This document shows positions 4,252 through 39,446 of a DNA stretch of 64,000 nucleotides, in pieces. The stretch comes from Lantana camara (taxonomy: Eukaryota; Streptophyta; Magnoliopsida; Lamiales; Verbenaceae), in the NCBI GenBank assembly GCA_037501455.1, contig CM074865.1:40406501-40470500 (forward strand), written 5' to 3'. Within the stretch, counting starts at the first letter, position 1. Each line of letters opens with the position of its first letter. The notes below the pieces were generated by a model. The model had not been told where the DNA came from. It saw only the letters and a program-made list of their open reading frames with translations, and did no database searches. Made by a program: the position numbers and the translations under genes.

Positions 4252-4355
4252 CTATAAATACCCCCCTTGAGCCTCATTTATACCTCACAATTCAACACAC
4301 AAAATCACTCTCTCCCTCTCCATTCTCACGCCACAACCCTCCCTCTCTCTCTAAG
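4252..4355 (+). promoter_or_regulatory. E2 promoter, short leader exon and 5' splice site
   Basis: A strong TATA box, CTATAAATA, is followed by a C/T-rich leader of about 70 nt without any ATG. It ends CTCTCTAAG|GTATG at 4355/4356. If spliced to the acceptor at 6732/6733 (GTGATTTCAG|CATT), the mRNA would carry an 80-nt leader whose first AUG is the gag start at 6741. The 2.4-kb unspliced leader contains many AUGs. The 3' LTR has the same signals (TATA about 12313-12321). Confidence 0.65.
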
Positions 4356-5750: not shown

Positions 5751-6445
5751 ATTCTCGTATTGGTTTTATTAAGCACCGACACCTTGATCAGTGTCGTTAC
5801 TATTTTTCTCGGATTTTACGGTGTTAAGGTTGGAGACGCCTAACTTGCGGGCATAAAATCATTTTCAAAACGGTTCATAGATTTTCTAAAGTATTGCCTA
5901 TATTCCCCCTACTCCTATTTCAACAAATATGAACCGGATATTATTGTCATATACTTATTTGTTACTATATAGTATATATATATTTCGAACCAAGACTTTC
6001 TTGGTCAAAACATTTTCAAAATCTTACTTAAAATCCTAAATCTCAAACCCCCCGTCACTTAGTCATTTTGACTAACCCTCCTACTCTTTTAATTCATGGT
6101 TTCAGGAATCGTTACAGCGACGCCTTAGAGGTATCTTGAAGCTTTAAGGTGTCACTTTCCAGTCGTTTAGATTAATCACAAGTGCATGTACAGCTTTCAA
6201 TAAGCACTCTTTCGTGAATATAAACCTATCGTTGTAATCACTTATCCAACTTAATATCATGTGTCTCGTTATATATTGTTCCCCTTTTTATTGTTTAAGT
6301 TTATCTCCGTTGCATTTAAATTTTATACTCTGGTATTGTATAGTCTTGTCCGTTCGCCGAAGTATTTCTCGAGTGCTAGGTCTCACATCCACTCGGGAAG
6401 TACAACGGTGCGGGGTTGTAGTGTTAAGGGGCGCTACAGCTAAGG

Positions 6446-6740: not shown

Positions 6741-9700
6741 ATGCCTCTACGAAAGACACTACGAAACAATTCTCCTTCACCACAAGATCCACCAGGACAC
6801 CCCGAACTCGTAGAAGCCTTAAGGCAATTCGTTCGAACTTGTACACCTGGAAATAACCCTACCAACGAGCGATCCTTAGAAAGGTTTCTCCGAATGAATC
6901 CCCCAAAATTCTTTGGAGAACCTAATGACCTGAAGGCTGAAAACTGGATAGCTAGTTTGGAAAAGATTTATGAAGCTATGGATATATTTCCCGAGGAACG
7001 GGAACGAGTGCAGTACGCAGCCTTTCTCTTAGAAGGACCCGCTTTGAGCTGGTGGAAGCACGTCAAGTTAACCTGGATAGAAGACCACACTGATTACAGT
7101 TGGGCGGAGTTTGTGAAGGAATTTCAGAATAAGTATATTCCTCAAGTGATAAGGGACACTCGAGAGGCTGAATTCATGACTTTAACACAAGGTTATATGT
7201 CAGTAGCAGAATACGAGGCAAGGTTTGTGAGGCTAATCCAGTATGCTCCACATATTTTAAATGATGAACGAAGGAAGACCAAGCGATTCATTGATGGATT
7301 GAAGCCAGACCTTCGATGGGCTTTAGCTTCATTAGATATTGAAACTTATAACAAAGCAGTCGATAAAGCCCTAAAGACCGAAGCAGCTCACAAGAATATT
7401 CGTCTGGCAGCTAATCGCCCTGGTCCCCCTCAAAATAAGCCCTTTCAAGGAATGAAACGACCTGCTGGACCATCCAGCCAGAAATTTGGGAAGAAACCCA
7501 CACCAGCCCAGCAAAAGCCTAAGTCAGTCCCATCCAATTCACAAGAGGAGATCACTTGTGAATATTGTCACAAACCGGGACATACTGAACAAGACTGTCG
7601 AAAGAAAGCTGGCACATGTTTGTGGTGTGGAGACCCTAATCACCAGTTTAATACATGCCCAAAGAAACCGGGGCTTAAGGAAAAGGAGAAGACTGTGGGA
7701 AAATCTGGAAAGCCACTTGTCAAAGGAAAAGCTTACGCGTTGGAAGGAAACGAGGATCCAGACCCTTCGGATATTGTGGAAGGTACGGTACACATCTTAA
7801 ACACGCCAGTTAAGGTCTTATATGACCCTGGTGCCACGCATTCATTCATTGCATCCAATTTATGTGCGCGTTTAAATTTTCCACTTGAATGCTCATCATA
7901 TAATTTCGAGATAAGTTCCCCTTTGGGAGCTTGTTTAATAACGGATCGAGTATATAAACGCTGCCCTATACAAATTGGTGATCGTTACTACCCAATGGAT
8001 CTTATTGAACTTCCGATAACGAGATATGGAATTATTCTGGGAATGGATTGGCTCTACAAATACCATGCTAAGTTGGATTGTTTCAAGAAAGAAATCATCT
8101 TAGGACAAGATGAAAGTAGGATTCTTGAAGACAAGAGATCAGTGGCAATCATTTCTATGACAGAAGCTAAGAAGTTGGTTCAGAAGGGAGCTACAGGGTT
8201 CATTGCCTATCTCCTAAATAGGCCAAAGGACCAACTTAAAGTTGAGGAGGTAGAAGTGGTAAATGAGTTTCTCGACGTTTTTCCAGAACACCTAAACTCA
8301 CTACCACCAGATCGCGAGTTAGAATTTGTAATCGATACGATTCCTGGGGCAGAGCCTTTCTCTAAAACCCCTTATCGGATGGCCCCAGCCGAACTTCAAG
8401 AGTTGAGAAAACAACTTGATGATTTGATTGAATCAGGATACATCCGTCCCAGTACATCACCTTGGGGAGCACCAGTGTTGTTTGTAAAGAAGAAAGATGG
8501 GACATTACGGATGTGCATCGATTACCGAGAACTTAATCGAATGACCATAAAGAACAAATACCCTCTACCCCATATAGAGGAGTTATTTGATGTCCTTCAA
8601 GGATCTAGAGTCTATTCTAAGTTAGACTTAAGGCAAGGGTATTATCAATTAAAGATTAGGGAGGAAGATATCCCTAAAACAGCTTTCAATACCCGCTATG
8701 GACACTTTGAATTCATAGTAATGCCTTTCGGATTGACCAATGCACCTGCTGCATTCATGGACATGATGCACCGGATATTCCGACCATGTTTGGATAAATT
8801 TGTGGTCATTTTCATCGATGACATACTGGTATTTTCCAAAACACCTGAGGAACATGCTGAACATCTTCGCATAGTGTTAAGTACTTTGCAAGATCATAAG
8901 CTATATGCTAAGTTCAGTAAATGTGAGTTCTGGATAGAAAAAGTTGCATTCCTCGGACATATAATCTCGGGATCAGGTGTTGAGGTAGATCCTTCAAAGA
9001 TTGAAGCAATTACAAATTGGAAAGTACCAAGGAATCCCTCAGAGGTGAGAAGTTTCCTAGGACTTGCAGGCTATTACCGCAGGTTTGTAAAGGACTTCTC
9101 TAAGATAGCCGCACCTCTTACAAAGTTAACAAAGAAAGAAAGAAAGTTTGAATGGACTGAACAATGCAAACAAAGTTTTCAAGAATTAAAGCAACGATTG
9201 ACATCTGCACCAGTACTAACCTTACCTGAAGGGAAGGAAGGTTATACAGTCTATACCGATGCCTCTAAAGAAGGGCTAGGTTGCGTATTAATGCAGCACG
9301 GAAAAGTGATAGCTTATGCCTCAAGAAAGCTCAAACCTCATGAGGAAAACTACCCTACTCATGACTTGGAATTAGCAGCAATTGTGTTTGCTCTTGTCAA
9401 GTGGAGACATTATCTTTACGGGGTTACCTTTGAAGTTTTCACTGATCACAAGAGCCTACGATACCTTTTTACTCAAAAGGAGTTGAACATGAGGCAAAGG
9501 AGATGGATGGAATTTCTGGAAGATTACGACTGTGTAATCCAGTACCATCCAGGAAAAGCTAACGTAGTGGCTGATGCTTTAAGTCGGAAATCAAGCTTAG
9601 CATCACTCTCAAGAAAGCCTTCAAGTAACCCACAAAAATCGGTGAAAGTAATCTCACGAGCTCGATTAGCAAATTTAGTGGTATTGTCGCCACTAAAGGA

Positions 9701-11164: not shown

Positions 11165-11178
11165 AAAGGGGGGAAGAT
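11165..11178 (+). promoter_or_regulatory. E2 polypurine tract
   Basis: AAAGGGGGGAAGAT directly before the 3' LTR, preceded by a T-run (TTTT) as is usual at retrotransposon PPTs. Confidence 0.9.
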
Positions 11179-14100
11179 TGTAACAGCCCGATTCAGGGCC
11201 AAGTTGAGAAAGGTAAGTAAAGGGTAATTCAGGAAGCGTTTATAACCTCGATCCTTATTAATCCTTTTCATGCATTGCATTTTATGTGACCTATATGCTT
11301 TTATATGATATAATTTTCGTAGATTTAATTCTTTTCTCTATTTAATTTATACTTTGAAACTCTTTGCATAAAATCCTAGAATTCTAGTATTCATTCCTTT
11401 CCAGCACCTAAAACCCCTTCATATACTTCAAAACCCATTCCTACAGTTTTAGGTTGGAAATTACAAAAATACCCCTACAACTCAAAAATATTCCTACATT
11501 TCCCGAAACACTTCCACTACCCAATATTTTAACCAAAAGAATCCTCATATTATTTCGAGGATCGTGATACTCTCCGTGAACCACAATTCCCATCCTAACT
11601 CCCGTAGTATCAAAAATCGGCAAAAACCCTAGCTTATGATTCGATCATCAATAAATCCTTATTCATCTACTTTTTGATATTCAAAATTATAACCAAAACG
11701 ACCCTCAAATTATTTTATGAATTTTCATGCATTTACCAAAAACTCGATTTCATCCATAGCATATTTATAAATATTTTCCTATTTAAAAATCATCATTTTA
11801 TTTTAAAACAATTAGCTTTTAATCAATAGTCGAAATTATACTTAAAACGATCCTTGAATTTTCCTTTATATTATAGTGATTTTTCCAAACTCTAAACTTT
11901 ATCATAGCTTCGTTTATATGATTTTTCTTATGATTTTCATCATCTTTAGTATTCATAATTTATAAACAAAAACTCCAAATATTTCATATTTATAATCAAA
12001 ACGAAGCTCACTTTTCACTCATTCTATTATTAATTCACTACATCAAAATTTTATCTCTCGACTCTTGAATAAATTTTATATTATTTTTACATTTATTTTT
12101 AATCAAAATGACATCATCCATGACCTCATGGTCTTCTAGAAGGATTAAACAAATGGGCATAATTTTTCCACATTTCCTAGTTAATTACCTAGCATTTGTT
12201 CATGAAATAATTTAACCACATCTCCAACTTAATTACCAAGCATTTGTTCAAATCTTAGGCAACCACATCTCCCATAAACTTTCATTTATTGCTTAGAAAC
12301 CCCTCATGACTACCTATAAATACCCCCCTTGAGCCTCATTTATACCTCACAATTCAACACACAAAATCACTCTCTCCCTCTCCATTCTCACGCCACAACC
12401 CTCCCTCTCTCTCTAAGGTATGTTTTCTTCTATTATTTCATTCTTTATATAATGTTCTTAGTATAGAAATATTAGTAGCATGTCTAGAATTAATTAAATT
12501 ATGCTTTAGGAAATTATTTTATGAAATATGTGCATAATTGTTAGTTTAAATAACAATGTGTGTACATTATGAAATTTTATTCAATTAAATGCATGAATCA
12601 TGATATGATATAATGTTCTTATGTATTTAAATGCTTATGATCTTGTTTGAATAAATTCATGCCTATAGTAATTTATTTAGAATTATTTTTCATAGAAAGT
12701 TCATATATTTTGCTATATTAAGCTTTAATCTTATGTTATGAATATGAATGTGATAGAACATGTTACACACCCTCTTTGAATATTCAAATGAGTTCAAGAA
12801 CATGTTCATAATGTTCTTGGATATGTGTGTGTGCATGTGTGTGCCGTGAGCTATGTGTGTGTGTGTGTGAAATTAATTTTGTGTTATAAAGTGTTTAATT
12901 CATATGAAATTGAATAGTAAATGCTTTTAATAGTAATTTTGATTTTTTGGTCAACTAAAATACCCTTTATTTCGAAATTATTTCAAAAATAATTATAAAA
13001 TAAGTTTTGGAATTTTTAAAGAAATAATTTCCCAAAATTTTCCAAAAATCAATAAACTATGTAATGTTTTTCAAAAGATAACCTACATTATCAAATTAAA
13101 CCTTGAATTTCATTTCAAACCTTACAATTAAAATTATAATATAGTTAATAAATATTTGATTAGTTAAAGATTCCATAAACCCTGAATTTATTAATTAAAC
13201 GGGTGAATTTAGGGTTTACCGGGAAATCTTTAACGCAACACATAATGTGTACCTTCTATAATTATTTACTACATTGTTGAGTGCAATTGGATTAGTTAGG
13301 AACCAAGAACCTAGTTCTGAGTCAGTAGTAGCTATTACTTTCAGGCGAACATAGGATCGAAGAGTGGAATCCTCACACTTCCACTTAAGTCTCGGTACCG
13401 GTGAGGGTTTTAAATCTTTTCAACTGAAATCATGATAAAATACTTTACTTTATTTTCTTGAATTTCCTTTCAAGTTATTCTTCCCTTTATGGGAAGGTAA
13501 TTCTTGTTAATTATTGAAAACATACATTTACCCGAGAAGTACTTAGTACCTTTTTACGGGTAAATATTCTCGTCTTGCAAGTAAAAATTATTGTTTTTCC
13601 TATGGGCCCGGTGGTATTGGTAGAAGTAGTAGTCCGGGAGGCACGGGCCGAGGTCTACTATTATACCAGCCGCCAACTAGATCTTGGTGGTGGTCTAACT
13701 GGAGGTTAGTTATTCCACACCAAGTGACGGGAAAAGGTACGTCCCTCCCACAATCTTGTTCATCGTCACTAGGGCTTGCAACCCTATGTGACACCGGAGG
13801 AAGAAGGATGGTATTCTCGTATTGGTTTTATTAAGTACCGACACCTTGATCAGTGTCGTTACTATTTTTCTCGGATTTTACGGTGTTAAGGTTGGAGACG
13901 CCTAACTTGCGGGCATAAAATCATTTTCAAAACGGTTCATAGATTTTCTAAAGTATTGCCTATATTCCCCCTACTCCTATTTCAACAAATATGAACCGGA
14001 TATTATTGTCATATACTTATTTGTTACTATATAGTATATATATATTTCGAACCAAGACTTTCTTGGTCAAAACATTTTCAAAATCTTACTTAAAATCCTA

Positions 14101-14500
14101 AATCTCAAACCCCCCGTCACTTAGTCATTTTGACTAACCCTCCTACTCTTTTAATTCATGGTTTCAGGAATCGTTACAGCGACGCCTTAGAGGTATCTTG
14201 AAGCTTTAAGGTGTCACTTTCCAGTCGTTTAGATTAATCACAAGTGCATGTACAGCTTTCAATAAGCACTCTTTCGTGAATATAAACCTATCGTTGTAAT
14301 CACTTATCCAACTTAATATCATGTGTCTCGTTATATATTGTTCCCCTTTTTATTGTTTAAGTTTATCTCCGTTGCATTTAAATTTTATACTCTGGTATTG
14401 TATAGTCTTGTCCGTTCGCCGAAGTATTTCTCGAGTGCTAGGTCTCACATCCACTCGGGAAGTACAACGGTGCGGGGTTGTAGTGTTAAGGGGCGCTACA
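11179..14500 (+). mobile_element. E2 3' LTR (3322 bp)
   Basis: Near-identical to 3118-6438. Differences seen by eye: one extra A near 11487 and substitutions near 11640, 12441, 12924, 12983, 13280, 13787 and 13836. TATA at about 12313-12321. Followed by the right ATCTT duplication (14501-14505). Confidence 0.95.
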
Positions 14501-22270: not shown

Positions 22271-22974
22271 ACATGTGCTATGAATTATTTAATTTATTTG
22301 GATTTATGGAATTAATTGATATCTATCTCGTATTCTCATATATTTAATGAGTTGAATGTCTTTATTTGTCCATTCTCTAATTGTAAACATGATATAGTAC
22401 GTGTTATGATCATTGTATAAAATTCTTGGATTGAAATTGATATCAAATGTGTATTTAGGTACTTGAATGAATTTGAACGCTTCCTTGAACGAATGATAAT
22501 GAAATATATGAAATGTTTGGGCTTGAAACCTTTATGCTATGAATGTACTTGAATGAATTATTTGATTATATGACCTCATTACAAGATTCATGTTTTTTTA
22601 TGCATCTCATATCATGTACATAACATGTCGTGCGTCTATGTGGTTTCACATTGAGTCAATTCTCACGAGTACACATTGTTCATTCCCTTGTACAGTTCGT
22701 TTCCAGGGAGGAAACTTCTGATTTGAGCAGGCACCCATTCTATTCATGTCTCTTATCTCGTGGTTTTCCAGGTGAGGTTGTTTTCATTCTAGTTACGTAT
22801 TGAACCCCTTATGTGACAAGTTTTGGCCAAAAGCCTAATATATACCTATATATTGTTTTCAAATGGAGTCATCGAGTAAATATTTTCTTAAGGATTATCA
22901 AATCTATTAATTATGTTATAAATATATTATATTTCTCATGATTTGAATGTGTTGGTGAGAGCATGTATTGTACA

Positions 22975-23200
22975 CGGGCCCAGGGACTTAGTGTATGTGG
23001 CTATCCGGGGAGGTATCGGGCCGACGGTGATCCCGTACGCTAGTCCCACTTTGATTACGGCAAAACGGACCTTGTCAGGAGTTTTGACGAGGAAACACTA
23101 ACCGGGCTTTTGAGGGTTCATGAACCTCACTAGCCACCATGCATGAGGTGGCCGGGTCTTCCAAACCCATCCACCACCCAGAGAAAGAAGGTTGGAACTT
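22975..23200 (+). other. E5 GC-rich structured island (P1-P4)
   Basis: P1: GGGACTTAGTGTATG (22983-22997) pairs with CGTACGCTAGTCCC (23034-23047), 14 pairs with one bulged T and two G-T pairs. P2: CCTTGTCA / TGACGAGG around GGAGTTT (23070-23092). P3: GAGGGT / AACCTC-type hairpin around TCATG (about 23112-23128). P4: GGTGG...GGGT / ACCC...CCACC (23147-23175). A purine-rich AGAGAAAGAAGG tail follows. Confidence 0.75.
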
Positions 23201-24044
23201 ATTTTCATGTTAACGATTATGTTATTATTGTTATGCCCCGTGCGGGAAGGCCGGGACATAGATTTCCCAAACGATTATAGCTTGCATGTATTATGGTGTA
23301 TTGCATGATCGCGTATTCAAAATATTAATTATATGTATCGTATACGGTCAGAGGTTGATTGGAGATTATGCACGCTCACTCTCCAAGCCTTAATGATTAT
23401 TCATGAATTATGAACTTAATGGAATTAATATGAATTAGTCGTAAAGACCGAGTATTGCTTGTCATTTTCTTGCCCTTCTCGGGAACTAGCTTTAAATAAA
23501 ACTTGCTCGGGATTTATGACTTGCATGTGCCTATTTCTATATATATGTATCGCTCCTGCTCACTTAGTCTTCAAGAGACTGACCCCTCTTTCCCGCTTTT
23601 CCAGATTCTTGCAGGTTCTGCTAGGCGGAAGTCGAGTCATAGCATTCTTGGTTGAGTCACACTTGTACAATCGAGTTACATTCTACATTGTTATGACTTA
23701 ATTGTAATTCCTTTATGTATTTGGGCCGGTGTGCCAAGCATGATTTATTGTTGGATATTGATTCGGGATAGGATGCATGTTGAATTTCAATTACCTTATG
23801 ATCATGTTATATGTTGGACTATTATCGAAATTTATGTATTACACGTTATTGCTTCCGCTTTGCACTCTTGGTTATTTTTTATTTATTTGGTACAGGGTTA
23901 GTTTCCGCCTAGCCAGGTTGATTTTATTTTTGTCTCCCGTTCGCTATGAGTCCGGTTCATGCTTGGATCATCCATTTAATGTGTGGACTAGACTTGTAGT
24001 GCGGGGGATGTGGTGTCTATCATCCCGGGTACTACATCCCTAAG

Positions 24045-25636: not shown

Positions 25637-26124
25637 TGTAAAGCCCCAGTTTTTTAGTTTTAATAATGTGGCGTATTTGTTTATAAATTGCGCAAATTAA
25701 TTATTTAATTATATGATTAATTGTTTATAAGTGTTTTTATTTGATTTAAACTGTAAACTATTGTTACTCTAATTTAATTCATTTTATTTTACTTTGATAT
25801 TTAGTGTTTAATTTCTTAATTAAGGTTTCATGTTACCTTAACTATTTCGGTAATTTCATTAATTAATTTCAACATGTTATTAGTTGGTTTTAATTTAATT
25901 AATATGGAATTTAAGTTTTAGTAAATTATTTATAACAATATGAATTCGTTCATGCGCATGAGTGTTCTATTTGTGCTTCGTTCATATATGTAATGATATC
26001 GGATTGGTATGGAAATTTAGTATGTCTTAAATATGTGTGTTATGAACTTACCTATATGCTCGGTTTATGTTTTCGGATTCATTTGACGTGTTTATGAATT
26101 TAATTTTGATTGTGGAACCAAATC

Positions 26125-26566
26125 GGGGGCTAACGAGCAATTAGCACACCCTTGGTTCCGTACGTGATATCTTGAGCTCGGGAATTCGGATTCGAATTCT
26201 GACACCTTCGTTGCCTTCGTATCGACGATTCGGAGACAATGGAACAAGCCTCATACCTTTTTGAAATCATTAAGACCTCTGAAATCCAACCGTAACGAGC
26301 AACTCGTGCAAGAGGAACTCCTTTGGTTGACTAGTCTTCATGGTGGGACCCCTTAACACCTCCCTAACCTAACCATACCTTAACCATGGCTTGTGTACCT
26401 TGGGATAAGCCTTTCTCTTCCCTTTGTGTTCTGAAAACCGAACAAATATCCCCCTTTTTGCAGCTGGAACTGATCGAGAGAGAGAGAGAGGAGAAAGAAG
26501 AAGGAAACCTTGGCCCTTTTGTGATTTTGAGCTCAAATCACCATTTTTCTTCACCAAATCTTCAAG
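26125..26566 (+). promoter_or_regulatory. E6 LTR promoter region and leader with 5' splice site
   Basis: The conserved block TTGAGCTCGGGAATTCGG (about 26171-26188) is followed by a leader of about 180 nt without ATG after 26385, containing (GA)n near 26475, and ending AAG|GTATG at 26566/26567. Copies end at 33471 and 40376. Confidence 0.5.
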
Positions 26567-27454
26567 GTATGAATATTTATGTCTTCTCTACTCTATTATA
26601 CTTGATTTCATCTACTTACATCATGTTTTGGATCAGATTTGATTAGGGTTTGGGTTAAGAGCATGAATAGGGTTTTGGGGGAAATTGCTCTTGTGACCTT
26701 GCTTGGTTGTGCAGCTGTTTTCCTTGCTTGTAAATGATTATATGAGCTTGTTTCTTGGCCAATTTCTTTCCCAACTGATAGTATATGATGTTAGGAGGAT
26801 TTCATCTCTTGCTCCTTTAATGAAATTATGAGATATGGAGCTCCAAACTTGATGATCTAATTGATTCCCCTGTTTTCGAACTGTTGTGTGAAATATTGTG
26901 TTGATGCTTGATCAAATGGTCTCCATTTCGTGTGAAATTGCATGGAGTTGATGTACACTCATTACTCTATATGTTAACATTCATGTTTCAAGTATTTGGA
27001 TCCATTTGAAGCCTCAAAACCGAAGTACATGGCCTGTTTTTATGCATGCTTCATGACAGAATTGTTGCTGTTGTGTTTGGTAACTTGTTGGTCGTTCTAA
27101 TGTGCTTTAAATTGTACCATTTTACATATATATGATGTATATTGGTTTTTTAGTATGTTAGCATGCATTCCCCAAAGTTTCAGATCCAAATTCAACCCCT
27201 AAGTACTTGATCAAGGCATGATGGAATCATTAGGGCTCATATGTACGATTTTGGCGACCCAGTTTTGTTGCATGGATTCGATGATCTTAACGTGTGATTT
27301 ATCCTTTGAACTCTAAATGAAAAATGTTCATAACATGCTAAATATGTTGTATATTAAGTTTCAGAGCATTTGGAGTTCATTTGGTATGTTTTTAGATTGA
27401 TTTGGTATGAGTTCAGTTTTGCCGGAAAAACTTTGTGTGTGGATAAGTTCTGTA

Positions 27455-27583
27455 TCGTGACACCCCCGTGTCTCATTTACTCATAAGAGTGAGACACGGG
27501 CGTGTCACACCTTCTGGGCAGCTCTGTACTGAGCCACGCCCGTGGCTCAGTTTGGCTAGGGTTGGTGACACCCCCGTGTCCCT
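27455..27583 (+). repeat. E6 palindrome cluster, LTR1
   Basis: GTGACACCCCCGTGTCTCA (about 27457-27475) and TGAGACACGGGCGTGTCAC (about 27490-27508) are inverse copies, pairing with one mismatch over 19 bp. A perfect hairpin follows at 27528-27551 (11-bp stem ACTGAGCCACG, loop CC), then GGTGACACCCCCGTGTCCC near 27564. It shares the GTGACAC core with E1. Copies at 34360-34488 and 41265-41393. Confidence 0.8.
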
Positions 27584-28574
27584 TCCCCTGCGCAGTCCGT
27601 GTTGCTTCCTTTTCGGTTTTTGATTTGTTTCACCTCCTTAATGACTTTATCTCCTTTTGTGTTGAACTATGAACTTGTTTTGCTTTATGTTGGGAGCATT
27701 ATGGTGTAATTTCATGGCTTTTGGATGTGTTATAGGCATGCTTTTACGTAATGCCGTTTATGTGTGTTTATATGTCGTTTATGAATCGCATAACTTATTT
27801 TCCATATCATATGATTTCTTCTTGTTGTCAAACCTTGGAAATATGCTATCTTATGTAATATGAGGTATATAGTAGCTTGTTGGGAGAGCTTGAATATGTT
27901 CTATGCTCCTATTTGAGTTCTTGAAATAAATTGATTGGACATATGAATTGAAGAATTTGAATGATTTATGATTGAACAAGTGAATGAATTGGTTATATGA
28001 TTTTCATGACTTAATATGATCTTTATGCCTTCATATCATGCTTGTGCATTGCCGTGCGTCATATATGGTTCATTAAGAGTCTTGAGCCTCACGAACACGT
28101 CTTGTGGTCTTTTGTACAGTTTGTCTCCAGGGTGGAGAGCTTTTGATCGTTCAGGCACTTGGTGCTCTATCCTTGTAACTTCACGGTTCAGGTGAGGGTG
28201 GTTTTGTTTTAACTATGTAACAAACCCTACAACCCTTATGTGAAAAGCTTTGGCCAAAACCTTATGATTATATATATATGGTTTTCAAATGAAGTTATCG
28301 AGTAAATCCTTCTGAATTGTGCGTATGAGCGTATATAAACTTAAAAATGGTTTTGTAATGAGGCTATGCTCCAAACCGTGTGTCTTCATGCTAGCTACGG
28401 AATAGGATGACACGGAGAGGTACGTATATAGCATATGCCGAATTACACGGTAAGGTATGATTCTTATAGTATGTATTGATCGAGTAAACCCTTTTCAAAT
28501 GATTTATGAATTATGATATGTACTTATGAATTGATATGTTTGGCGAGACACATTTACGATTTATGATTGAACGG

Positions 28575-28790
28575 GCCCCGGGACTTAGTATATGTGGCTA
28601 ACCGAGGAAGCAAGGGCTGACGGGGATCCCATATACTAGTCCCACTATTGAACAGCGGTACCGGACCTCGTCAGGAGATTGGCGGGGAAAGGGAGCTGAG
28701 TGCCATCTGGGGAGTCATGTAACCCCTTTTGGTCAATGATTGGGTGGTCGGGCCTTGCAAACCCACCACCAACCCGGAGGAAGAAGGTTG
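28575..28790 (+). other. E6 GC-rich structured island, LTR1 (P1-P4)
   Basis: P1: GGGACTTAGTATATG (28580-28594) with CATATACTAGTCCC (28630-28643), 14 Watson-Crick pairs and one bulged T. P2: CCTCGTCA-GGAGAT-TGGCGGGG (28666-28687). P3: GGGG / CCCC around AGTCATGTAA (28709-28726). P4: GGTGGT / ACCACC around GGCCTTGCAA (28743-28770). Tail CCCGGAGGAAGAAGG. Copies at 35480-35695 and 42385-42600. Confidence 0.78.
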
Positions 28791-29673
28791 GAACTTATTT
28801 ATGATTGAAATGATTGATTGACTGATTGATTATCGATTGATAGGCACTGTGCGGGAAGGCCGGGAATCGGATTGCCCAAACAATATATTTAGGACATGAT
28901 TTATGGTCTGTGTATTATGATATATTGCATGATCGCTTAATCAATATATTAATGATATTTGTCGTACACGGTCGGAGTTTGGATGGAGATTGTGCACGCT
29001 CACTCGCCGAGCCTTATATTTATGTATGATTTATGAATGTAATGAATTTAATATGAATTAGTCGTAACAGTCGAGCATTGTTTATCTATTTTCTTGCCCT
29101 TTTCGGGAACTAAATTCAATTAAAACCTTGCTCGGGATTTATGACTTGCATGTGCATGTTTTATAAATATGTATCGCTCCTACTCACTCAGTCTTCTAGA
29201 GACTGACCCCTTTCCCTCCCCAATCTTTTTAGTGTGCAGGTTTGATCTTTGGAGTTTCGAGCTAGGCGGAGGTGTTTGGAGTCTTTAAGTGGGTTGAGTT
29301 AGGGTAGGAGAGTTTTTGCACTCATTCATGTATTGGATTTATGTATGATTCGATTTCATAGTCTCTGGAACTTGAATAATTATATAATTGTTAGTGAATT
29401 GCTTTTACTGGGTTTTGTTATGTTTTAAAAGAGGCCTGAAGAGCCCAAATTCCGTTTATGGCTTGTATGATTCAACTTTGGCTTTGCTATGCAATATATT
29501 TTGTTGATTGGTTTTCATTGCAGGGTCTAGTTCCGCCTAGCTTAGGAGGGTTTTTATGTTTGTCTCCCATTCGCTAGGGTTTGATACGGGTACGGATTTA
29601 CTATTTCGTTACTCGTGTTGAGCCTTAGTGCGGGGGATGTGGCGCCTCACGTGCGGGGTGCTACATCCTTAAG

Positions 29674-29685
29674 TGGTATCAGAGC
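29674..29685 (+). promoter_or_regulatory. E6 PBS, first copy
   Basis: TGGTATCAGAGC, initiator-Met type, 8 nt after LTR1. Confidence 0.92.
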
Positions 29686-30146
29686 CCAGTTGCAAAACCG
29701 GTGTTCTCGTGTCGTGTGTGAGTCAGTCTAGGCCGTACGGCTTAGGGACTATATGGAAATGTGTGCATTGCATTGATCTTGAACATGAATTTGGCTTTCC
29801 TTTTTGAATTTGGCTAGACTATCTGTTGTAATTACATAAGGATCCTTGCAATAATTGTTGAAAATGTGTCATGAGCATGCACTAATCGCATGCATCTACT
29901 CTTGAAGTAAGCTATGATTATAGGTTATGAAGATAATATCAAACCACGGCCAAGTTCTATGACAAAGAAGATCGATTGCAAACCTTCTGAGGCATGGAAG
30001 ATGGGCAGGATACTCTGGGAAGAATGTAGAGCATTAGAGATGTGAGACTTCCCAAATGGAGCTGTGTACCTGGGCTCGACAAGAAGGATTTCTGATTAAG
30101 CCTAGTGAATTGAAATCAAGTCTATCGAAGTTAAGACCGGGAAGAG

Positions 30147-30383
30147 TTGGACTTGGGTGCTCTGGATTTCGATCGTGATGGGAAACTCATAAACAATAGT
30201 CACGGTAATCTTGAGCAAGGTGTTGAGTGGGAGATGAGCTTGTTTTTCCAAGACCAAGCTGAATTGTCATGTCGTGAAGTTGAAATGGAAGATATGAAGC
30301 AACAAATGGAAACGGTAAAGAAAGGCAACCACTCCTTGAAAGGAAATCATGCTGTCAAATGTAAGCAGTGGGAGGTGAATTGA
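30147..30383 (+). other. Short open frame in E6 internal region, function unknown
   Basis: 78 codons (METVKKGNHSLKGN near the end). It is repeated unchanged at 37052-37288 because the region is duplicated. The last ~20 residues resemble the start of the E5 frame at 25213 (MGTIKKGKELLGGN), with about half the residues alike. That may reflect shared ancestry of the DNA rather than selection on a peptide. I do not recognise a family and would not call it a gene without expression data. Confidence 0.25.
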
Positions 30384-32321
30384 ACTTTCGAAAGGGTAAG
30401 TGCGGGATTCTTGATTGAGACGACGATTGGAAGTAAAGGTCGAATTTAGAGAATAGATTGGATGCTAACTCCTTGGAAGTGGAAGATACAAGTTGATTTA
30501 TAAAGATGCATGGGAATCTCGAAGACCGTGGGAAAGGCAAGGAATAATTACCAAGTCAAAGTAACCGCGGGACTTGGAGTAGCAAGGAAAAGCTGTCGAG
30601 CTAACTACTTACCCCATTGGTGACAGGTTCCAAAGCATTCATAGCACGTGCATCATATTTTGCATTAATTATTTATTCTCTTGATCTTATGTTATTCGTG
30701 CATTTCTAATTGGTTTCGTTGCGCTAAGGTATTGTATAATTGCTTGATGTAAACGTGACCCATGCATGGTCATTTTAACCCAACATGCATTTTAGTGTTT
30801 ACTTGATAGGAAGTCCTTTCGCCTCAACTATCAAGTATCAGTGCAACTGAGCCGCATCTGAGTTATGAGGAAGGTGAATTTGGGAAATAAAGAACTTTAG
30901 GTAAGGGATAGGTTAGTGGAAAGGACCTCCGAAGGAAAGTCAGATTAGATTCATCTTTGGGGTGTTCGGATCGAATAAGAATGGGGAAGAGAGATTGAGG
31001 GAGTTCGATGAAAGAGCAAAATTTTAAGGGGGAGAGCACGACCGAGAGATAAAATGGAAGATGGAAGTAATGCTCGAATAAATATGTCAATAGCAACAAC
31101 GGGGATGCAAATTAAGGAGAATCCGGAAATCCTAATGGTGGCCATTGGAAATGAATAAGAGGACGGTAATGGTTAAGTTGTTAAGAGAGAAGTGACGATG
31201 CCAAATTCGGGGAAGGATTTTTCGAGATATAAAGAAGAAAGTTTGCTGAACGACTCTATGCCTGGAATTCCGAATTGGGAGTGATGAAATTATATGGGTC
31301 TTTCTGTGACCTCCTAAGATGGAATTAACTAAAGGAAAATTGGATCAATCTATTATATGAGGAGATGTTGTCGGCCAAGATTTATTTAGTAGAAGTATTA
31401 AGGGATCCGAGACAACATTATTAAGTTATCGGTTCTATCAAAAATGATCCAGAGTAATCCAATAAAGTACAAAAGGGGTTCAATAATGACAATATTATCA
31501 AGTCTTCGGTTAGTCCCACGATAATCCGGAAGAAACCAAACCGGAGAAGATGATCATTGGAGGATTTACATCGAACTTCAAGAGTCATCAAGAACACTCT
31601 ATCTTCGATTCAAGAAATGTGGAGCTAGATGCCAAATATAAACCTAAGGGGTCAAAGGGAATGAATGGATACCAGGAACAGAAGATGGAAAAAGGATTCG
31701 TGTTAAGGTAGATCCTAATGACGAATACCTCTAGGTAGGGATTGAATCGTCAAGGTGGTCAGGGGTAGTTATTCTTGAGGATATTTTAAACTCTGATATG
31801 AGTAAGATAGTAGCTATGGATCTAACATTGAGAGGGATGGTCTAAGGATATTCGGGGAGGTCAAGCGCGGTTAATTAAAAAGAATTGGATGGTCGAACGA
31901 AGATTGCGGGAAATGGTGAAGACTGGAAATAGTACAAGTCAGAACGGATCCAAGAGTATGATCCTTAAAGGATTTATCAATAGCTTCACCGAGGAACCTT
32001 GAAGAGGTTCAAGACAAGCTGACCACTGAGCTATCTTCAGGATAGATCCTACACTGGACAACGACAACTCTCAATTCTAAACTTTGAAACTTCGGTGAAC
32101 GGTACTTATAGCATTCATGATACATGCATCCATGCAAATTTAACTTATATAATTTTTATGTTAGGTGCTTTAATCTTGTATTGTGTTAAATTACTTGGAA
32201 TAATTGGATATTAATGTGGGCTACATTTATTACTTGCTTTGGGTGCCTTACGTGATTTTAAATTTGGTTTTGCGTGAGTTGCTTGGGAGTATTGGAGACT
32301 TCCTTGCTTTATTTTCGGTTA

Positions 32322-32481
32322 AGAGACGGGGATTCTCTTATTTTTGTTTGAGAGACGGGGTACTCTCTTTGTTTGCGAGAGACGGGGTTCTCTCATTGTT
32401 GTTGGAGAGACGGGGTTCTCTCATTGCTGCTCGAGAGACGGGGCTCTCTCCTTGTCGTTTGTGAGAGACGGGGAATCTCTC
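32322..32481 (+). repeat. E6 GAGAGACGGGG hairpin array, copy 1
   Basis: Six units of about 28 bp, each GAGAGA-CGGGGN-TCTCTC (32322-32338, 32350-32367, 32377-32394, 32405-32422, 32433-32450, 32463-32481). The 6-bp arms and CGGGG loop are constant and the spacers are T/G-rich. It lies just upstream of the GAGGAC hairpin and PPT. Copy 2 at 39227-39386. Confidence 0.9.
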
Positions 32482-32505
32482 ATTGTTTGATTTCAAGCGT
32501 GTTTT

Positions 32506-32523
32506 GAATCCGAGGACGGATTC
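32506..32523 (+). other. E6 pre-PPT hairpin with GAGGAC loop, copy 1
   Basis: GAATCC-GAGGAC-GGATTC, a perfect 6-bp stem, followed by the PPT. E6 has no pol frame, yet keeps the loop and a paired stem, which argues the hairpin is conserved as nucleic acid rather than as codons. Copy 2 at 39411-39428. Confidence 0.78.
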
Positions 32524-32541
32524 CTTTTAAGGGGGAGAGAT

Positions 32542-35500
32542 TGCAACGCCCCAGTTTTTCAGTTTTAATAATGTGGCGTATTTGTTTATAAATTGCGCAA
32601 ATTAATTATTTAATTATATGATTAATTGTTTATAAGTGTTTTTATTTGATTTAAACTGTAAACTATTGTTACTCTAATTTAATTCATTTTATTTTACTTT
32701 GATATTTAGTGTTTAATTTCTTAATTAAGGTTTCATGTTACCTTAACTATTTCGGTAATTTCATTAATTAATTTCAACATGTTATTAGTTGGTTTTAATT
32801 TAATTAATATGGAATTTAAGTTTTAGTAAATTATTTATAACAATATGAATTCGTTCATGTGCATGAGTGTTCTATTTGTGCTTCGTTCATATATGTAATG
32901 ATATCGGATTGGTATGGAAATTTAGTATGTCTTAAATATGTGTGTTATGAACTTACCTATATGCTCGGTTTATGTTTTCGGATTCATTTAACATGTTTAT
33001 GAATTTAATTTTGATTGTGGAACCAAATCGGGTGCTAACGAGCAATTAGCGCACCCTTGGTTCCGTACGTGATATCTTGAGCTCGGGAATTCGGATTCGA
33101 ATTCCGACACCTCCGTTGCCTTCGTATCGACGATTCGGAGACAATGGAACAAGCCTCATGCCTTTTTGAAATCATTAAGACCTCCGAAATCCAACCGTAA
33201 CGAGCAACTCGTGCAAGAGGAACTCCTTTGGTTGACTAGTCTTCATGGTGGGACCCCTTAACACCTCCCTAACCTAACCATACCTTAACCATGGCTTGTG
33301 TACCTTGGGATAAGCCTTTATCTTCCCTTTGTGTTCTGAAAACCGAACAAATATCCCCCTTTTTGCAGCTGGAACTGATCGAGAGAGAGAGAGAGGAGAA
33401 AGAAGAAGGAAACCTTGGCCCTTTTGTGATTTTGAGCTCAAATCACCATTTTTCTTCACCAAATCTTCAAGGTATGAATATTTATGTCTTCTCTACTCTA
33501 TTATACTTGATTTCATCTACTTACATCATGTTTTGGATCAGATTTGATTAGGGTTTGGGTTAAGAGCATGAATAGGGTTTTGGGGGAAATTGCTCTTGTG
33601 ACCTTGCTTGGTTGTGCAGCTGTTTTCCTTGCTTGTAAATGATTATATGAGCTTGTTTCTTGGCCAATTTCTTTCCCAACTGATAGTATATGATGTTAGG
33701 AGGATTTCATCTCTTGCTCCTTTAATGAAATTATGAGATATGGAGCTCCAAACTTGATGATCTAATTGATTCCCCTGTTTTCGAACTGTTGTGTGAAATA
33801 TTGTGTTGATGCTTGATCAAATGGTCTCCATTTCGTGTGAAATTGCATGGAGTTGATGTACACTCATTACTCTATATGTTAACATTCATGTTTCAAGTAT
33901 TTGGATCCATTTGAAGCCTCAAAACCGAAGTACATGGCCTGTTTTTATGCATGCTTCATGACAGAATTGTTGCTGTTGTGTTTGGTAACTTGTTGGTCGT
34001 TCTAATGTGCTTTAAATTGTACCATTTTACATATATATGATGTATATTGGTTTTTTAGTATGTTAGCATGCATTCCCCAAAGTTTCAGATCCAAATTCAA
34101 CCCCTAAGTACTTGATCAAGGCATGATGGAATCATTAGGGCTCATATGTACGATTTTGGCGACCCAGTTTTGTTGCATGGATTCGATGATCTTAACGTGT
34201 GATTTATCCTTTGAACTCTAAATGAAAAATGTTCATAACATGCTAAATATGTTGTATATTAAGTTTCAGAGCATTTGGAGTTCATTTGGTATGTTTTTAG
34301 ATTGATTTGGTATGAGTTCAGTTTTGCCGGAAAAACTTTGTGTGTGGATAAGTTCTGTATCGTGACACCCCCGTGTCTCATTTACTCATAAGAGTGAGAC
34401 ACGGGCGTGTCACACCTTCTGGGCAGCTCTGTACTGAGCCACGCCCGTGGCTCAGTTTGGCTAGGGTTGGTGACACCCCCGTGTCCCTTCCCCTGCGCAG
34501 TCCGTGTTGCTTCCTTTTCGGTTTTTGATTTGTTTCACCTCCTTAATGACTTTATCTCCTTTTGTGTTGAACTATGAACTTGTTTTGCTTTATGTTGGGA
34601 GCATTATGGTGTAATTTCATGGCTTTTGGATGTGTTATAGGCATGCTTTTACGTAATGCCGTTTATGTGTGTTTATATGTCGTTTATGAATCGCATAACT
34701 TATTTTCCATATCATATGATTTCTTCTTGTTGTCAAACCTTGGAAATATGCTATCTTATGTAATATGAGGTATATAGTAGCTTGTTGGGAGAGCTTGAAT
34801 ATGTTCTATGCTCCTATTTGAGTTCTTGAAATAAATTGATTGGACATATGAATTGAAGAATTTGAATGATTTATGATTGAACAAGTGAATGAATTGGTTA
34901 TATGATTTTCATGACTTAATATGATCTTTATGCCTTCATATCATGCTTGTGCATTGCCGTACGTCATATATGGTTCATTAAGAGTCTTGAGCCTCACGAA
35001 CACGTCTTGTGGTCTTTTGTACAGTTTGTCTCCAGGGTGGAGAGCTTTTGATCGTTCAGGCACTTGGTGCTCTATCCTTGTAACTTCACGGTTCAGGTGA
35101 GGGTGGTTTTGTTTTAACTATGTAACAAACCCTACAACCCTTATGTGAAAAGCTTTGGCCAAAACCTTATGATTATATATATATGGTTTTCAAATGAAGT
35201 TATCGAGTAAATCCTTCTGAATTGTGCGTATGAGCGTATATAAACTTAAAAATGGTTTTGTAATGAGGCTATGCTCCAAACCGTGTGTCTTCATGCTAGC
35301 TACGGAATAGGATGACACGGAGAGGTACGTATATAGCATATGCCGAATTACACGGTAAGGTATGATTCTTATAGTATGTATTGATCGAGTAAACCCTTTT
35401 CAAATGATTTATGAATTATGATATGTACTTATGAATTGATATGTTTGGCGAGACACATTTACGATTTATGATTGAACGGGCCCCGGGACTTAGTATATGT

Positions 35501-36570
35501 GGCTAACCGAGGAAGCAAGGGCTGACGGGGATCCCATATACTAGTCCCACTATTGAACAGCGGTACCGGACCTCGTCAGGAGATTGGCGGGGAAAGGGAG
35601 CTGAGTGCCATCTGGGGAGTCATGTAACCCCTTTTGGTCAATGATTGGGTGGTCGGGCCTTGCAAACCCACCACCAACCCGGAGGAAGAAGGTTGGAACT
35701 TATTTATGATTGAAATGATTGATTGACTGATTGATTATCGATTGATAGGCACTGTGCGGGAAGGCCGGGAATCGGATTGCCCAAACAATATATTTAGGAC
35801 ATGATTTATGGTCTGTGTATTATGATATATTGCATGATCGCTTAATCAATATATTAATGATATTTGTCGTACACGGTCGGAGTTTGGATGGAGATTGTGC
35901 ACGCTCACTCGCCGAGCCTTATATTTATGTATGATTTATGAATGTAATGAATTTAATATGAATTAGTCGTAACAGTCGAGCATTGTTTATCTATTTTCTT
36001 GCCCTTTTCGGGAACTAAATTCAATTAAAACCTTGCTCGGGATTTATGACTTGCATGTGCATGTTTTATAAATATGTATCGCTCCTACTCACTCAGTCTT
36101 CTAGAGACTGACCCCTTTCCCTCCCCAATCTTTTTAGTGTGCAGGTTTGATCTTTGGAGTTTCGAGCTAGGCGGAGGTGTTTGGAGTCTTTAAGTGGGTT
36201 GAGTTAGGGTAGGAGAGTTTTTGCACTCATTCATGTATTGGATTTATGTATGATTCGATTTCATAGTCTCTGGAACTTGAATAATTATATAATTGTTAGT
36301 GAATTGCTTTTACTGGGTTTTGTTATGTTTTAAAAGAGGCCTGAAGAGCCCAAATTCCGTTTATGGCTTGTATGATTCAACTTTGGCTTTGCTATGCAAT
36401 ATATTTTGTTGATTGGTTTTCATTGCAGGGTCTAGTTCCGCCTAGCTTAGGAGGGTTTTTATGTTTGTCTCCCATTCGCTAGGGTTTGATACGGGTACGG
36501 ATTTACTATTTCGTTACTCGTGTTGAGCCTTAGTGCGGGGGATGTGGCGCCTCACGTGCGGGGTGCTACA
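32542..36570 (+). mobile_element. E6 LTR2 (middle LTR, 4029 bp, mosaic)
   Basis: Starts TGCAACGCCCC like LTR3, not TGTAAAGC like LTR1. All diagnostic bases to about 33186 match LTR3; from about 33973 on they match LTR1. A few private changes (for example near 33320 and 34962) show it is a real separate copy. The crossover is therefore between 33186 and 33973. Confidence 0.93.
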
Positions 36571-39446
36571 TCCTTAAGTGGTATCAGAGCCCAGTTGCAA
36601 AACCGGTGTTCTCGTGTCGTGTGTGAGTCAGTCTAGGCCGTACGGCTTAGGGACTATATGGAAATGTGTGCATTGCATTGATCTTGAACATGAATTTGGC
36701 TTTCCTTTTTGAATTTGGCTAGACTATCTGTTGTAATTACATAAGGATCCTTGCAATAATTGTTGAAAATGTGTCATGAGCATGCACTAATCGCATGCAT
36801 CTACTCTTGAAGTAAGCTATGATTATAGGTTATGAAGATAATATCAAACCACGGCCAAGTTCTATGACAAAGAAGATCGATTGCAAACCTTCTGATTCAT
36901 GGAAGATGGGCAGGATACTCTGGGAAGAATGTAGAGCATTAGAGATGTGAGACTTCCCAAATGGAGCTGTGTACCTGGGCTCGACAAGAAGGATTTCTGA
37001 TTAAGCCTAGTGAATTGAAATCAAGTCTATCGAAGTTAAGACCGGGAAGAGTTGGACTTGGGTGCTCTGGATTTCGATCGTGATGGGAAACTCATAAACA
37101 ATAGTCACGGTAATCTTGAGCAAGGTGTTGAGTGGGAGATGAGCTTGTTTTTCCAAGACCAAGCTGAATTGTCATGTCGTGAAGTTGAAATGGAAGATAT
37201 GAAGCAACAAATGGAAACGGTAAAGAAAGGCAACCACTCCTTGAAAGGAAATCATGCTGTCAAATGTAAGCAGTGGGAGGTGAATTGAACTTTCGAAAGG
37301 GTAAGTGCGGGATTCTTGATTGAGACGACGATTGGAAGTAAAGGTCGAATTTAGAGAATAGATTGGATGCTAACTCCTTGGAAGTGGAAGATACAAGTTG
37401 ATTTATAAAGATGCATGGGAATCTCGAAGACCGTGGGAAAGGCAAGGAATAATTACCAAGTCAAAGTAACCGCGGGACTTGGAGTAGCAAGGAAAAGCTG
37501 TCGAGCTAACTACTTACCCCATTGGTGACAGGTTCCAAAGCATTCATAGCACGTGCATCATATTTTGCATTAATTATTTATTCTCTTGATCTTATGTTAT
37601 TCGTGCATTTCTAATTGGTTTCGTTGCGCTAAGGTATTGTATAATTGCTTGATGTAAACGTGACCCATGCATGGTCATTTTAACCCAACATGCATTTTAG
37701 TGTTTACTTGATAGGAAGTCCTTTCGCCTCAACTATCAAGTATCAGTGCAACTGAGCCGCATCTGAGTTATGAGGAAGGTGAATTTGGGAAATAAAGAAC
37801 TTTAGGTAAGGGATAGGTTAGTGGAAAGGACCTCCGAAGGAAAGTCAGATTAGATTCATCTTTGGGGTGTTCGGATCGAATAAGAATGGGGAAGAGAGAT
37901 TGAGGGAGTTCGATGAAAGAGCAAAATTTTAAGGGGGAGAGCACGACCGAGAGATAAAATGGAAGATGGAAGTAATGCTCGAATAAATATGTCAATAGCA
38001 ACAACGGGGATGCAAATTAAGGAGAATCCGGAAATCCTAATGGTGGCCATTGGAAATGAATAAGAGGACGGTAATGGTTAAGTTGTTAAGAGAGAAGTGA
38101 CGATGCCAAATTCGGGGAAGGATTTTTCGAGATATAAAGAAGAAAGTTTGCTGAACGACTCTATGCCTGGAATTCCGAATTGGGAGTGATGAAATTATAT
38201 GGGTCTTTCTGTGACCTCCTAAGATGGAATTAACTAAAGGAAAATTGGATCAATCTATTATATGAGGAGATGTTGTCGGCCAAGATTTATTTAGTAGAAG
38301 TATTAAGGGATCCGAGACAACATTATTAAGTTATCGGTTCTATCAAAAATGATCCAGAGTAATCCAATAAAGTACAAAAGGGGTTCAATAATGACAATAT
38401 TATCAAGTCTTCGGTTAGTCCCACGATAATCCGGAAGAAACCAAACCGGAGAAGATGATCATTGGAGGATTTACATCGAACTTCAAGAGTCATCAAGAAC
38501 ACTCTATCTTCGATTCAAGAAATGTGGAGCTAGATGCCAAATATAAACCTAAGGGGTCAAAGGGAATGAATGGATACCAGGAACAGAAGATGGAAAAAGG
38601 ATTCGTGTTAAGGTAGATCCTAATGACGAATACCTCTAGGTAGGGATTGAATCGTCAAGGTGGTCAGGGGTAGTTATTCTTGAGGATATTTTAAACTCTG
38701 ATATGAGTAAGATAGTAGCTATGGATCTAACATTGAGAGGGATGGTCTAAGGATATTCGGGGAGGTCAAGCGCGGTTAATTAAAAAGAATTGGATGGTCG
38801 AACGAAGATTGCGGGAAATGGTGAAGACTGGAAATAGTACAAGTCAGAACGGATCCAAGAGTATGATCCTTAAAGGATTTATCAATAGCTTCACCGAGGA
38901 ACCTTGAAGAGGTTCAAGACAAGCTGACCACTGAGCTATCTTCAGGATAGATCCTACACTGGACAACGACAACTCTCAATTCTAAACTTTGAAACTTCGG
39001 TGAACGGTACTTATAGCATTCATGATACATGCATCCATGCAAATTTAACTTATATAATTTTTATGTTAGGTGCTTTAATCTTGTATTGTGTTAAATTACT
39101 TGGAATAATTGGATATTAATGTGGGCTACATTTATTACTTGCTTTGGGTGCCTTACGTGATTTTAAATTTGGTTTTGCGTGAGTTGCTTGGGAGTATTGG
39201 AGACTTCCTTGCTTTATTTTCGGTTAAGAGACGGGGATTCTCTTATTTTTGTTTGAGAGACGGGGTACTCTCTTTGTTTGCGAGAGACGGGGTTCTCTCA
39301 TTGTTGTTGGAGAGACGGGGTTCTCTCATTGCTGCTCGAGAGACGGGGCTCTCTCCTTGTCGTTTGTGAGAGACGGGGAATCTCTCATTGTTTGATTTCA
39401 AGCGTGTTTTGAATCCGAGGACGGATTCCTTTTAAGGGGGAGAGAT
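36571..39446 (+). mobile_element. E6 internal region 2
   Basis: Same length and almost the same sequence as 29666-32541; the only difference noticed is GATTCATGG for GAGGCATGG near 36891. Includes the hairpin array 39227-39386, the GAGGAC hairpin 39411-39428 and the PPT 39434-39446. Confidence 0.92.
36579..36590 (+). promoter_or_regulatory. E6 PBS, second copy
   Basis: TGGTATCAGAGC, 8 nt after LTR2. Confidence 0.92.

Follow-up and report, generated by a model that had tools for sequence, protein, structure and literature searches.

HIV-1 has an NC with two knuckles, and the palindrome in its dimerisation loop stands in an exact 9-nt register, that is, two bases, the six-base palindrome and one base (NN-6-N). 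Other structured multi-hairpin elements serve unspliced RNA, such as the four-hairpin RTE of the mouse IAP and the CTE of type D retroviruses, and we know of no palindrome-preserving loop in either of them. The barley element BARE belongs to the copia lineage. To our knowledge, the choice of genomic RNA by plant LTR retrotransposons is largely open.

The portion of the HIV-1 literature available to us describes the DIS as a hairpin loop with a six-nucleotide palindrome and flanking purines that forms kissing dimers, with GUGCAC as an alternative palindrome in some strains; it also describes a GGAG hairpin loop in SL3 that is bound by NC, and reports that swapping out this tetraloop hardly affected packaging (PMC7599994). 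In MMTV, according to the available part of PMC8096270, the DIS and the single-stranded purine loop GGAGAAGAG both cap the same stem-loop, SL4, as apical loops, and the purine loop binds Gag and is required for packaging. For the yeast elements Ty1 and Ty3, the accessible text of a 2016 review places cis signals in the leader region and mentions palindromes suggested for Ty1 dimers, but describes Ty3 RNA structure as uncharacterised and the Ty1/Ty3 packaging sequences as not precisely defined (PMC4974528). For BARE, the part of PMC3735527 available to us describes a spliced RNA for translation and a separate packaged RNA, and mentions conserved dimerisation and packaging signals.

The window, that is, the whole stretch of 64,000 nucleotides analysed here, is rich in Ty3-type elements and comes from a host genome of 1.27 Gb, where it spans 40406501-40470500 of contig C11. 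Elements are referred to by labels such as E2. E2 is a young full-length element with a single open frame, in which gag, protease, RT, RNase H, integrase and chromodomain follow each other in the order of a Ty3 chromodomain element. Directly 3' of its 5' LTR lies a primer site, TGGTATCAGAGC, which we take to be of the tRNA-Met type. E6 is a tandem array, probably produced by unequal recombination. The main features of these two elements are as follows.

3117-6438, plus strand: 5' LTR of E2, found by self-comparison, 99.8% identical to the 3' LTR
11178-14500, plus strand: 3' LTR of E2, found by self-comparison, 99.8% identical to the 5' LTR
7557-7598 and 7617-7658, plus strand: two CCHC zinc knuckles in E2 Gag, a candidate RNA-binding partner
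25637-43477: E6 array, LTR-internal-LTR-internal-LTR, with three 4-kb LTR copies about 99% alike
29666-32541, plus strand: E6 internal region, longest stop-free stretch 86 codons

The internal region of E6 gave no match to eight gag/pol pieces of E2.

At least six element families in the window carry a domain of about 215 nt, which consists of a stem P1 with a nested hairpin, the hairpins P2, P3 and P4, and then the purine sequence GGAGGAAGAAGG. The copies are located as follows.

22974-23192, plus strand: E5 copy, the first one noted
28573-28787, plus strand: first E6 copy, used as the reference for coordinates
35478-35692, plus strand: second E6 copy
42383-42597, plus strand: third E6 copy
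54756-54966, plus strand: E8 copy
58378-58585, plus strand: E9 copy, clade I form
61324-61543, minus strand: E10 copy
5538-5754, plus strand: E2 copy in the 5' LTR
13600-13816, plus strand: E2 copy in the 3' LTR
44324-44504, minus strand: decayed copy in another minus-strand element

The sequence-only reading had reported this plan in E5, E6 with its repeats, E8, E9 and E10; we found it at all of these places within a few bases, and the P1 and P2 arms it quoted do pair when G-U is allowed. It had placed the domain inside LTRs, which is established for E2 and E6, whereas the self-comparison of the window gave no paired LTRs for E5, E8, E9 and E10. It had also credited E1 and E2 with partial versions. 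No copy was found in E1. In E2, P3 was not recognised in either copy, so that "partial" is fair, but the word implies less than is there: P1 with its nested hairpin, P2, P4 and the tail; the stems are largely replaced, while the CTTGCAA loop and CCGGAGGAAGAAGG are retained. A profile built without E2 matched only the two ends of the E2 domain, and the near full-length match was obtained with a profile already holding the E2 copies.

In the reference copy, with helix limits set by reading, the domain begins with GGGCCC, followed by P1, a 14-bp stem (28580-28594/28630-28643) enclosing the nested hairpin (28602-28623). P2 (28666-28687) has the loop GGAG (28674-28677), P3 (28702-28733) has the loop TCATG (28715-28719), and P4 (28743-28770) has a 9-nt loop with the palindrome TTGCAA (28755-28760). 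The purine tail GGAGGAAGAAGG (28774-28787) is unpaired in the consensus folds of the genome-copy sets. The domains are identical in all three of the near-identical E6 LTRs. In E5, P1 lies at about 22983-23047 and P2 at 23070-23092 (GGAG 23078-23081); the P3 loop is TTCATGAA, P4 (23147-23175) has the non-palindromic loop TTCCAA, and the tail is at 23178-23191. The nested hairpin follows the pattern CCG-[AG]GGA-NNC facing GNN-GA-CGG. With RNAalifold, the five window families returned P1, P2 and P4 and, mostly, the P3 hairpin, and the genome-copy sets returned all four hairpins; in the latter the leading GGG pairs with the CCC before the tail, which in these predicted folds may be a closing stem of the domain. 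By reading, the P3 stem is longer in most clade I copies than in E5, E6, E8 and E10. The consensus fold of clade III repeats the plan, and the middle part differs in clade IV. Among the genome copies, L129 has a foreign 5' half followed only by the P3-P4 end, and in L189 part of the domain is duplicated head to tail; rearrangement within the domain happens.

All genome copies used below came from one genome. The pattern CTTGCAA-N(10-30)-CCGGAGGAAGAAGG occurs at 21,144 places in it (10,475 forward and 10,669 reverse), and the backward pattern at none. From 100 listed places we read 60, all on contig C1 and mostly one per neighbouring pair. Since this pattern fixes CTTGCAA and the tail, these 60 places are uninformative on those two motifs. 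In the window, Rfam gave no match at the gathering score and nothing relevant at permissive thresholds. In public viral contigs, the RT-domain search and the two-motif pattern each gave none. Twelve exact-motif matches in viral contigs were set aside, because in 11 of them the profile gave only the motif stretch or weak scraps, and the best one, L007 (E 6.7e-6), looked on inspection like an unrelated coding stretch. Seven matches in bacterial and archaeal contigs covered the motif region only and were taken as chance.

The sequence-only reading had argued for a selected structure from constant loops on changing but compensated stems, and had suggested RNAalifold as a check. RNAalifold gave -115.6 for the five window families against -78.6±5.0 in 200 column-shuffled alignments (z -7.5), meaning that pairing is stronger than in shuffled alignments. 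Its covariation term, the sign convention of which is unverified, differed less (59.7 against 51.8±3.4 shuffled). Single-sequence folding was moderately unusual, with sense z values of -1.5 to -2.9, and the antisense values of E2 and E10 were low too.

We then have two held-out tests on genome copies, both judged against a null in which the tree is preserved and each column has as many substitutions as in the data. Near-identical copies were dropped before the counts, with a threshold set for each analysis. In one test, the structure came from the five window families, and 32 genome copies out of 57 candidates, less than 90% identical to the window copies and less than 95% to each other, served as the test set. 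Two-sided compensated cells numbered 84 against 34.6±9.7 (reached by 0 of 1000 nulls), further pair types 61 against 48.5±3.1 (0 of 1000), and pairs with two-sided changes 21 against 13.5±2.5 (2 of 1000); the canonical fraction alone was less striking (0.752 against 0.702±0.026, 29 of 1000). In the other test, the structure came from 30 copies of the E9 family, and the test set was 22 copies (subfamilies) out of 37 from elsewhere in clade I, under a sorting rule that left out L130, L137, L142 and L165, all of which read as clade I. Here the canonical fraction was 0.872 against 0.786±0.015 (0 of 1000), with 0.40-0.45 for slid partners. Two-sided cells were 64 against 17.5±6.7 (0 of 1000), pairs with two-sided changes 16 against 7.7±2.0 (0 of 1000), and pair types 46 against 38.0±2.6 (1 of 1000).

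The modal frequency in 49 sequences was 0.92 for GGAG and 0.98 for TCATG, and 0.66-0.83 for the stem arms; in 21 copies found by similarity it was 0.97 for CTTGCAA and 0.95 for the purine tract. That is, constant loops with changing, compensated stems are also found in genome copies outside the window. The set of the second held-out test has 94 G-U cells against 32 A-C cells when all helices (P1, the nested part, P2, P3, P4) are pooled, an excess to be expected under selection on the sense RNA; P2 alone (12 against 14) and the nested part alone (1 against 4) show no such excess.

The tests on single pairs and single stems gave weaker results. An all-pairs covariation scan, with our own tree-based null imitating R-scape, returned no proposed pair at E<0.05 in any set. 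The R-scape check that the sequence-only reading had asked for is thus, in its strict form and as far as this imitation goes, not passed. The best E was 5.7 with 47 sequences, and the best structural pair had E 0.66 with 50 sequences. With sets of 44 and 24 sequences, the clade sorting of which is imperfect (L116 and L120 in the first, L147 in the second), the best structural E was 0.46 and 6.4, and 0.0024 and 0.029 when only the proposed pairs were scored. L118, L129, whose 5' half is foreign, and L138, which was badly trimmed, were dropped from the scans of 50, 44 and 24 sequences and from both held-out tests. In the scans of 50 and 44 sequences, the top rank (E 0) went to a loop pair that is not structural, which we read as subfamily linkage or recombination. 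Because deep clades are few and recombination is likely, the pooled tests have power that the per-pair tests lack. The transfer of single-sequence minimum-energy folds was ambiguous: pairing was kept in 53% of two-sided changes against 37% in slid controls, and in 30% of one-sided changes against 39%. The numbers of anchored-stem shuffles, of 1000, that reached the observed score were as follows: for P1, 4 in E5, 0 in E6, 0 in E8, 81 in E9 and 4 in E10; for P2, 305, 53, 1, 58 and 31 in the same order; for P4 of these five families, 92-133; and for E2, 17 at P1, 17 at P2 and 6 at P4. Taken together, the shuffled-alignment folding and the held-out tests give good support, at the level of sequence comparison, to a selected RNA structure of the sense strand, and we regard a selected structure as almost certain.

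Among 76 distinct copies found by similarity and not by motif (L118 excluded), the P4 loop holds the six-base palindrome TTGCAA in 65. E5 in the window has TTCCAA. The other 11 loops are eight one-base variants and three from one E5 subfamily, which has CTAGCTA in L025 and L028 (palindrome TAGCTA) and CTATCTA in L029. Three E9-like copies have the non-palindromic TTGAAA.

A P4 pattern in which the closing pairs and the tail were fixed and G was barred at the loop centre matched 438 places in the genome, and the control matched none. Among the 100 matches listed of these 438, two were TTGCAA in a shifted frame. Of the remaining 98 listed loops, 50 were one change and 19 were two changes from TTGCAA, and none of these 69 was palindromic. 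In contrast to these, among the listed loops at least three changes away, 23 of 29 were palindromic (TAATTA 16, GGCGCC 5, GGTACC 1, GGATCC 1). The listed places are non-independent, several being neighbouring LTRs or one subfamily; counted as distinct six-mers, 4 of the 10 among these 29 loops are palindromic (P=1.2e-5 at 1/64). The six non-palindromic ones were TTATAG, GGCACC, AGCGCC, AGCTCC, GGTGCC and AGTACC, and the last five look like decay, since GGCGCC or GGTACC is within two changes of each. TTACTA and TTTCTA, which are non-palindromic, recur five times each among the 100 matches listed. Loops of this kind (TTTCTA/TTACTA) were also seen in L185, L186 and L188, which are otherwise good domains.

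TAATTA, GGCGCC, GGTACC and GGATCC all occupy positions 3-8 of a 9-nt loop, the same register as TTGCAA. In the GG..CC loops, the outer palindrome bases could be a stem extension; the two bases at the centre, however, have no possible partner within the hairpin, and in all of the palindromes these two (GC, AT, CG, TA, AT; GC in TAGCTA) are self-complementary. The TAATTA duplex is very weak (-0.4 kcal/mol). Ten places with divergent or neighbouring loops were fetched. The domain profile aligns to eight of them (L174, L175, L178-L181, L183 and L184) along most of its length, and to L176 and L182 in the 3' part only. By reading, the clade III copies have GGAG at P2 in L178-L181 and L183, not L184, and TCATG at P3 in L179-L181 and L184, not L178 or L183, and clade IV (L174, L175) has neither a GGAG nor a TCATG hairpin loop. 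P4 is, in sum, a hairpin loop with a six-base self-complementary sequence on a compensated flanking stem, and among the matches listed palindromicity is mostly kept when the loop changes by three or more bases. For a kissing-loop dimer interface one would predict a loop in which most bases change and self-complementarity stays; for export, splicing or translation elements one would not.

The sequence-only reading had also said that the domain would lie only in unspliced RNA. Splice signals that we predicted from the sequence agree with this.

22772-23613, plus strand: predicted intron around the E5 domain, donor CCAG/GTGAGG, acceptor TTCCAG (to 23604) or TTGCAG (to 23613)
28192-29239, plus strand: predicted intron around the E6 domain, TTCAG/GTGAGG to TGTGCAG
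4253-4260, plus strand: TATAAATA box in the E2 5' LTR
4356 to 5338, plus strand: predicted splice signals in the E2 leader, donor AAG/GTATGT at 4356, TTTCAG acceptor to 5282, 56-nt exon 2 at 5283-5338
5339-6105, plus strand: predicted E2 intron 2 holding the domain, donor CCG/GTGAGG, acceptor GGTTTCAG to 6105

The order donor, domain, acceptor was read in E5, E6, E9, E10 and the minus-strand element too. The predicted donor of E8 has AT, not GT, at 54575-54576, and the E8 domain is intact. In three families, with search ranges of 100-350 nt before and 250-700 nt after the domain, the predicted donor lies 155-235 nt before it and the acceptor 303-466 nt after it. Both signals were present in 21 of 28, 23 of 30 and 27 of 30 copies (71 of 88), and the antisense control gave 0 donors and 2 acceptors in 88; since copies within a family share descent, this result amounts to three observations, not 88. 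We rejected the idea that the purine tail ends in a splice donor, since the base after GAAGAAGG is T in E5, E6, E8 and E10 and A in E9 and E2.

When the five leaders were compared per 50 nt, mean pairwise identity was 0.55-0.78 across the domain, 0.0-0.2 in the 200 nt before and the 100 nt after it, and up to 0.4-0.64 farther out, in stretches close to the predicted splice sites and to the end of the LTR. Because identity rises again there, we count the domain as one conserved patch among several. At 29261-29269, immediately 3' of its predicted acceptor, E6 has GCTAGGCGGG-like letters, with similar ones in E5, E8, E9 and E10. About 270 nt further on, near the LTR end, lies a largely complementary CCCGCCTAGC-like stretch in E6 (29533-29541), E8, E9 and E10; in E8, the pair is GCTAGGCGGGA and TCCCGTCTAGC. 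The two stretches may form a long-range stem near the end of the LTR. Short inverted repeats were also seen upstream in several LTRs (2661-2889; 57240-57400; 62590-62760 and 45110-45250, the last two on the minus strand). Their arms vary and their centre is rich in G (GTGACACGGGGGTGTCAC, GAGACACGGGGGTGTCTC, AATCCACGGCCGTGGATT); these are perhaps a second set of compensated hairpins.

We think it probable that the domain acts in cis, as a signal for dimerisation and packaging of the genome of plant chromodomain-type Ty3 elements, and that it is confined to unspliced RNA. By analogy it would be built like a retroviral Psi region, placed inside the intron of an LTR-encoded leader. The sequence features behind this reading are the conserved structure, the loop changes that keep the palindrome, the knuckles, and the presence of the domain in an element without detectable gag/pol. 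RNA would start at the LTR promoter; spliced RNA would lose the domain and serve as mRNA, and unspliced RNA would keep it. On the unspliced RNA, the palindrome in the 9-nt P4 loop (NN-palindrome-N) would kiss the same loop of a second RNA, which we infer from the palindrome switching. Gag zinc knuckles might then bind GGAGGAAGAAGG beside P4, predicted to be unpaired, and the GGAG of P2, so that dimeric unspliced RNA is packaged, as analogy suggests. P1 and P3 may be architectural or offer extra contacts, which is a guess. A signal in the LTR-leader intron would reserve packaging for unspliced RNA; by the logic of reverse transcription, unspliced RNA needs an intact U5 to rebuild the LTR. One element, E6, keeps the domain without detectable gag/pol, and it does so identically in three LTRs, as a passenger packaged in trans would.

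The sequence-only reading had guessed at packaging or dimerisation, or at export of unspliced RNA. The former gains specific support from P4, which stays palindromic across divergent lineages. The latter, in which an intron-borne structure recruits an export receptor in the manner of the simian type D CTE or the IAP RTE, we consider unlikely. It would suit a domain within a predicted intron that has several hairpins with conserved internal loops (the GGA/GA internal loop of P1) and is kept by an element without detectable gag/pol, but it does not predict that the P4 loop switches palindromes in one register, and no relevant Rfam match was found. The same switching is unexplained if the domain regulates splicing from within the intron, its fold and the GAAGAAGG purine tract, presumably a GAA-type enhancer-like sequence, keeping leader splicing inefficient so that unspliced RNA survives. 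The domain does lie between predicted donor and acceptor, and the tract is among its most conserved parts (modal frequency 0.95 in the 21 similarity-found copies); in our judgement, however, a compensated fold of about 215 nt exceeds the needs of a splicing enhancer, and this role is quite improbable.

A translation element, that is, an IRES or a shunt structure in the long leader, would fit a position upstream of the gag-pol frame in a presumably transcribed leader. It is very improbable, because the domain is predicted to be spliced out of the mRNA and is kept in an element without detectable gag/pol. Finally, the domain might have no RNA function and be a conserved DNA patch, or shared ancestry with LTR recombination might merely make it look structured. 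The few deep clades, the local linkage visible in the non-structural column pair that tops the scans, the weak single-stem tests (P4 in five families, 92-133 of 1000; P2 of E5, 305 of 1000) and the canonical fraction reached by 29 of 1000 nulls in the first held-out test are in keeping with this. On the other hand, tree-aware nulls and slid controls were rejected in sequences not used for discovering the structure, E2 replaces stems but keeps loops, and G-U exceeds A-C. We regard this explanation as barely credible.

Returning to the dimerisation and packaging signal, we have one further speculation, which is possible but doubtful: the P4 palindrome might act as a retrotransposon mating type, so that a lineage with a new loop would lose the ability to co-dimerise or recombine with its parent. 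The types would be TTGCAA, TAATTA, GGCGCC, GGTACC, GGATCC and TAGCTA. On the same tentative footing, non-autonomous passengers would keep the loop of their helper, and the LTR intron would separate genome RNA from mRNA.

If the proposed function is true, plant chromodomain elements have a retrovirus-like dimerisation and packaging module at very high copy number, the Gag knuckles are a directly testable partner of it, large elements without gag/pol are explained, and many natural variants are at hand for studies of kissing-loop evolution. Literature searches, which covered listings and passages of open-access papers, brought up no such domain for plant Ty3 elements. Retroelement dimerisation and packaging signals are already known as a kind.

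Like the IAP RTE and the CTE, the domain has several hairpins and would serve unspliced RNA, and it has no relevant Rfam match. Ty1 and Ty3 of yeast would share leader-region cis signals with it, and the available part of PMC4974528 describes no matching four-hairpin domain. Unlike the plant Ty3 domain, the 104-nt intron of BARE is not described, in the part of PMC3735527 available to us, as holding the signal. As in SL4, near the MMTV splice donor, a palindromic loop is close to an unpaired GGAG...AAG purine tract, and the plant GGAG...GAAGAAGG resembles the MMTV purine loop as the accessible text presents it (PMC8096270); the plant tract, however, is a tail after P4, not a second apical loop, and lies 3' of the predicted donor. 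In contrast to HIV-1, the plant domain belongs to the LTR itself and lies within a predicted intron, its stems are unrelated, and it has more palindrome types, including the AT-rich TAATTA. It resembles SL1 and SL3 of HIV-1, as far as the available description goes, in having a palindromic hairpin loop with flanking bases, variants of the palindrome and a GGAG loop. The P4 loop, which changes its letters and yet remains self-complementary, suggests by this analogy that two RNA copies may pair through it and be packaged together, as in retroviruses.
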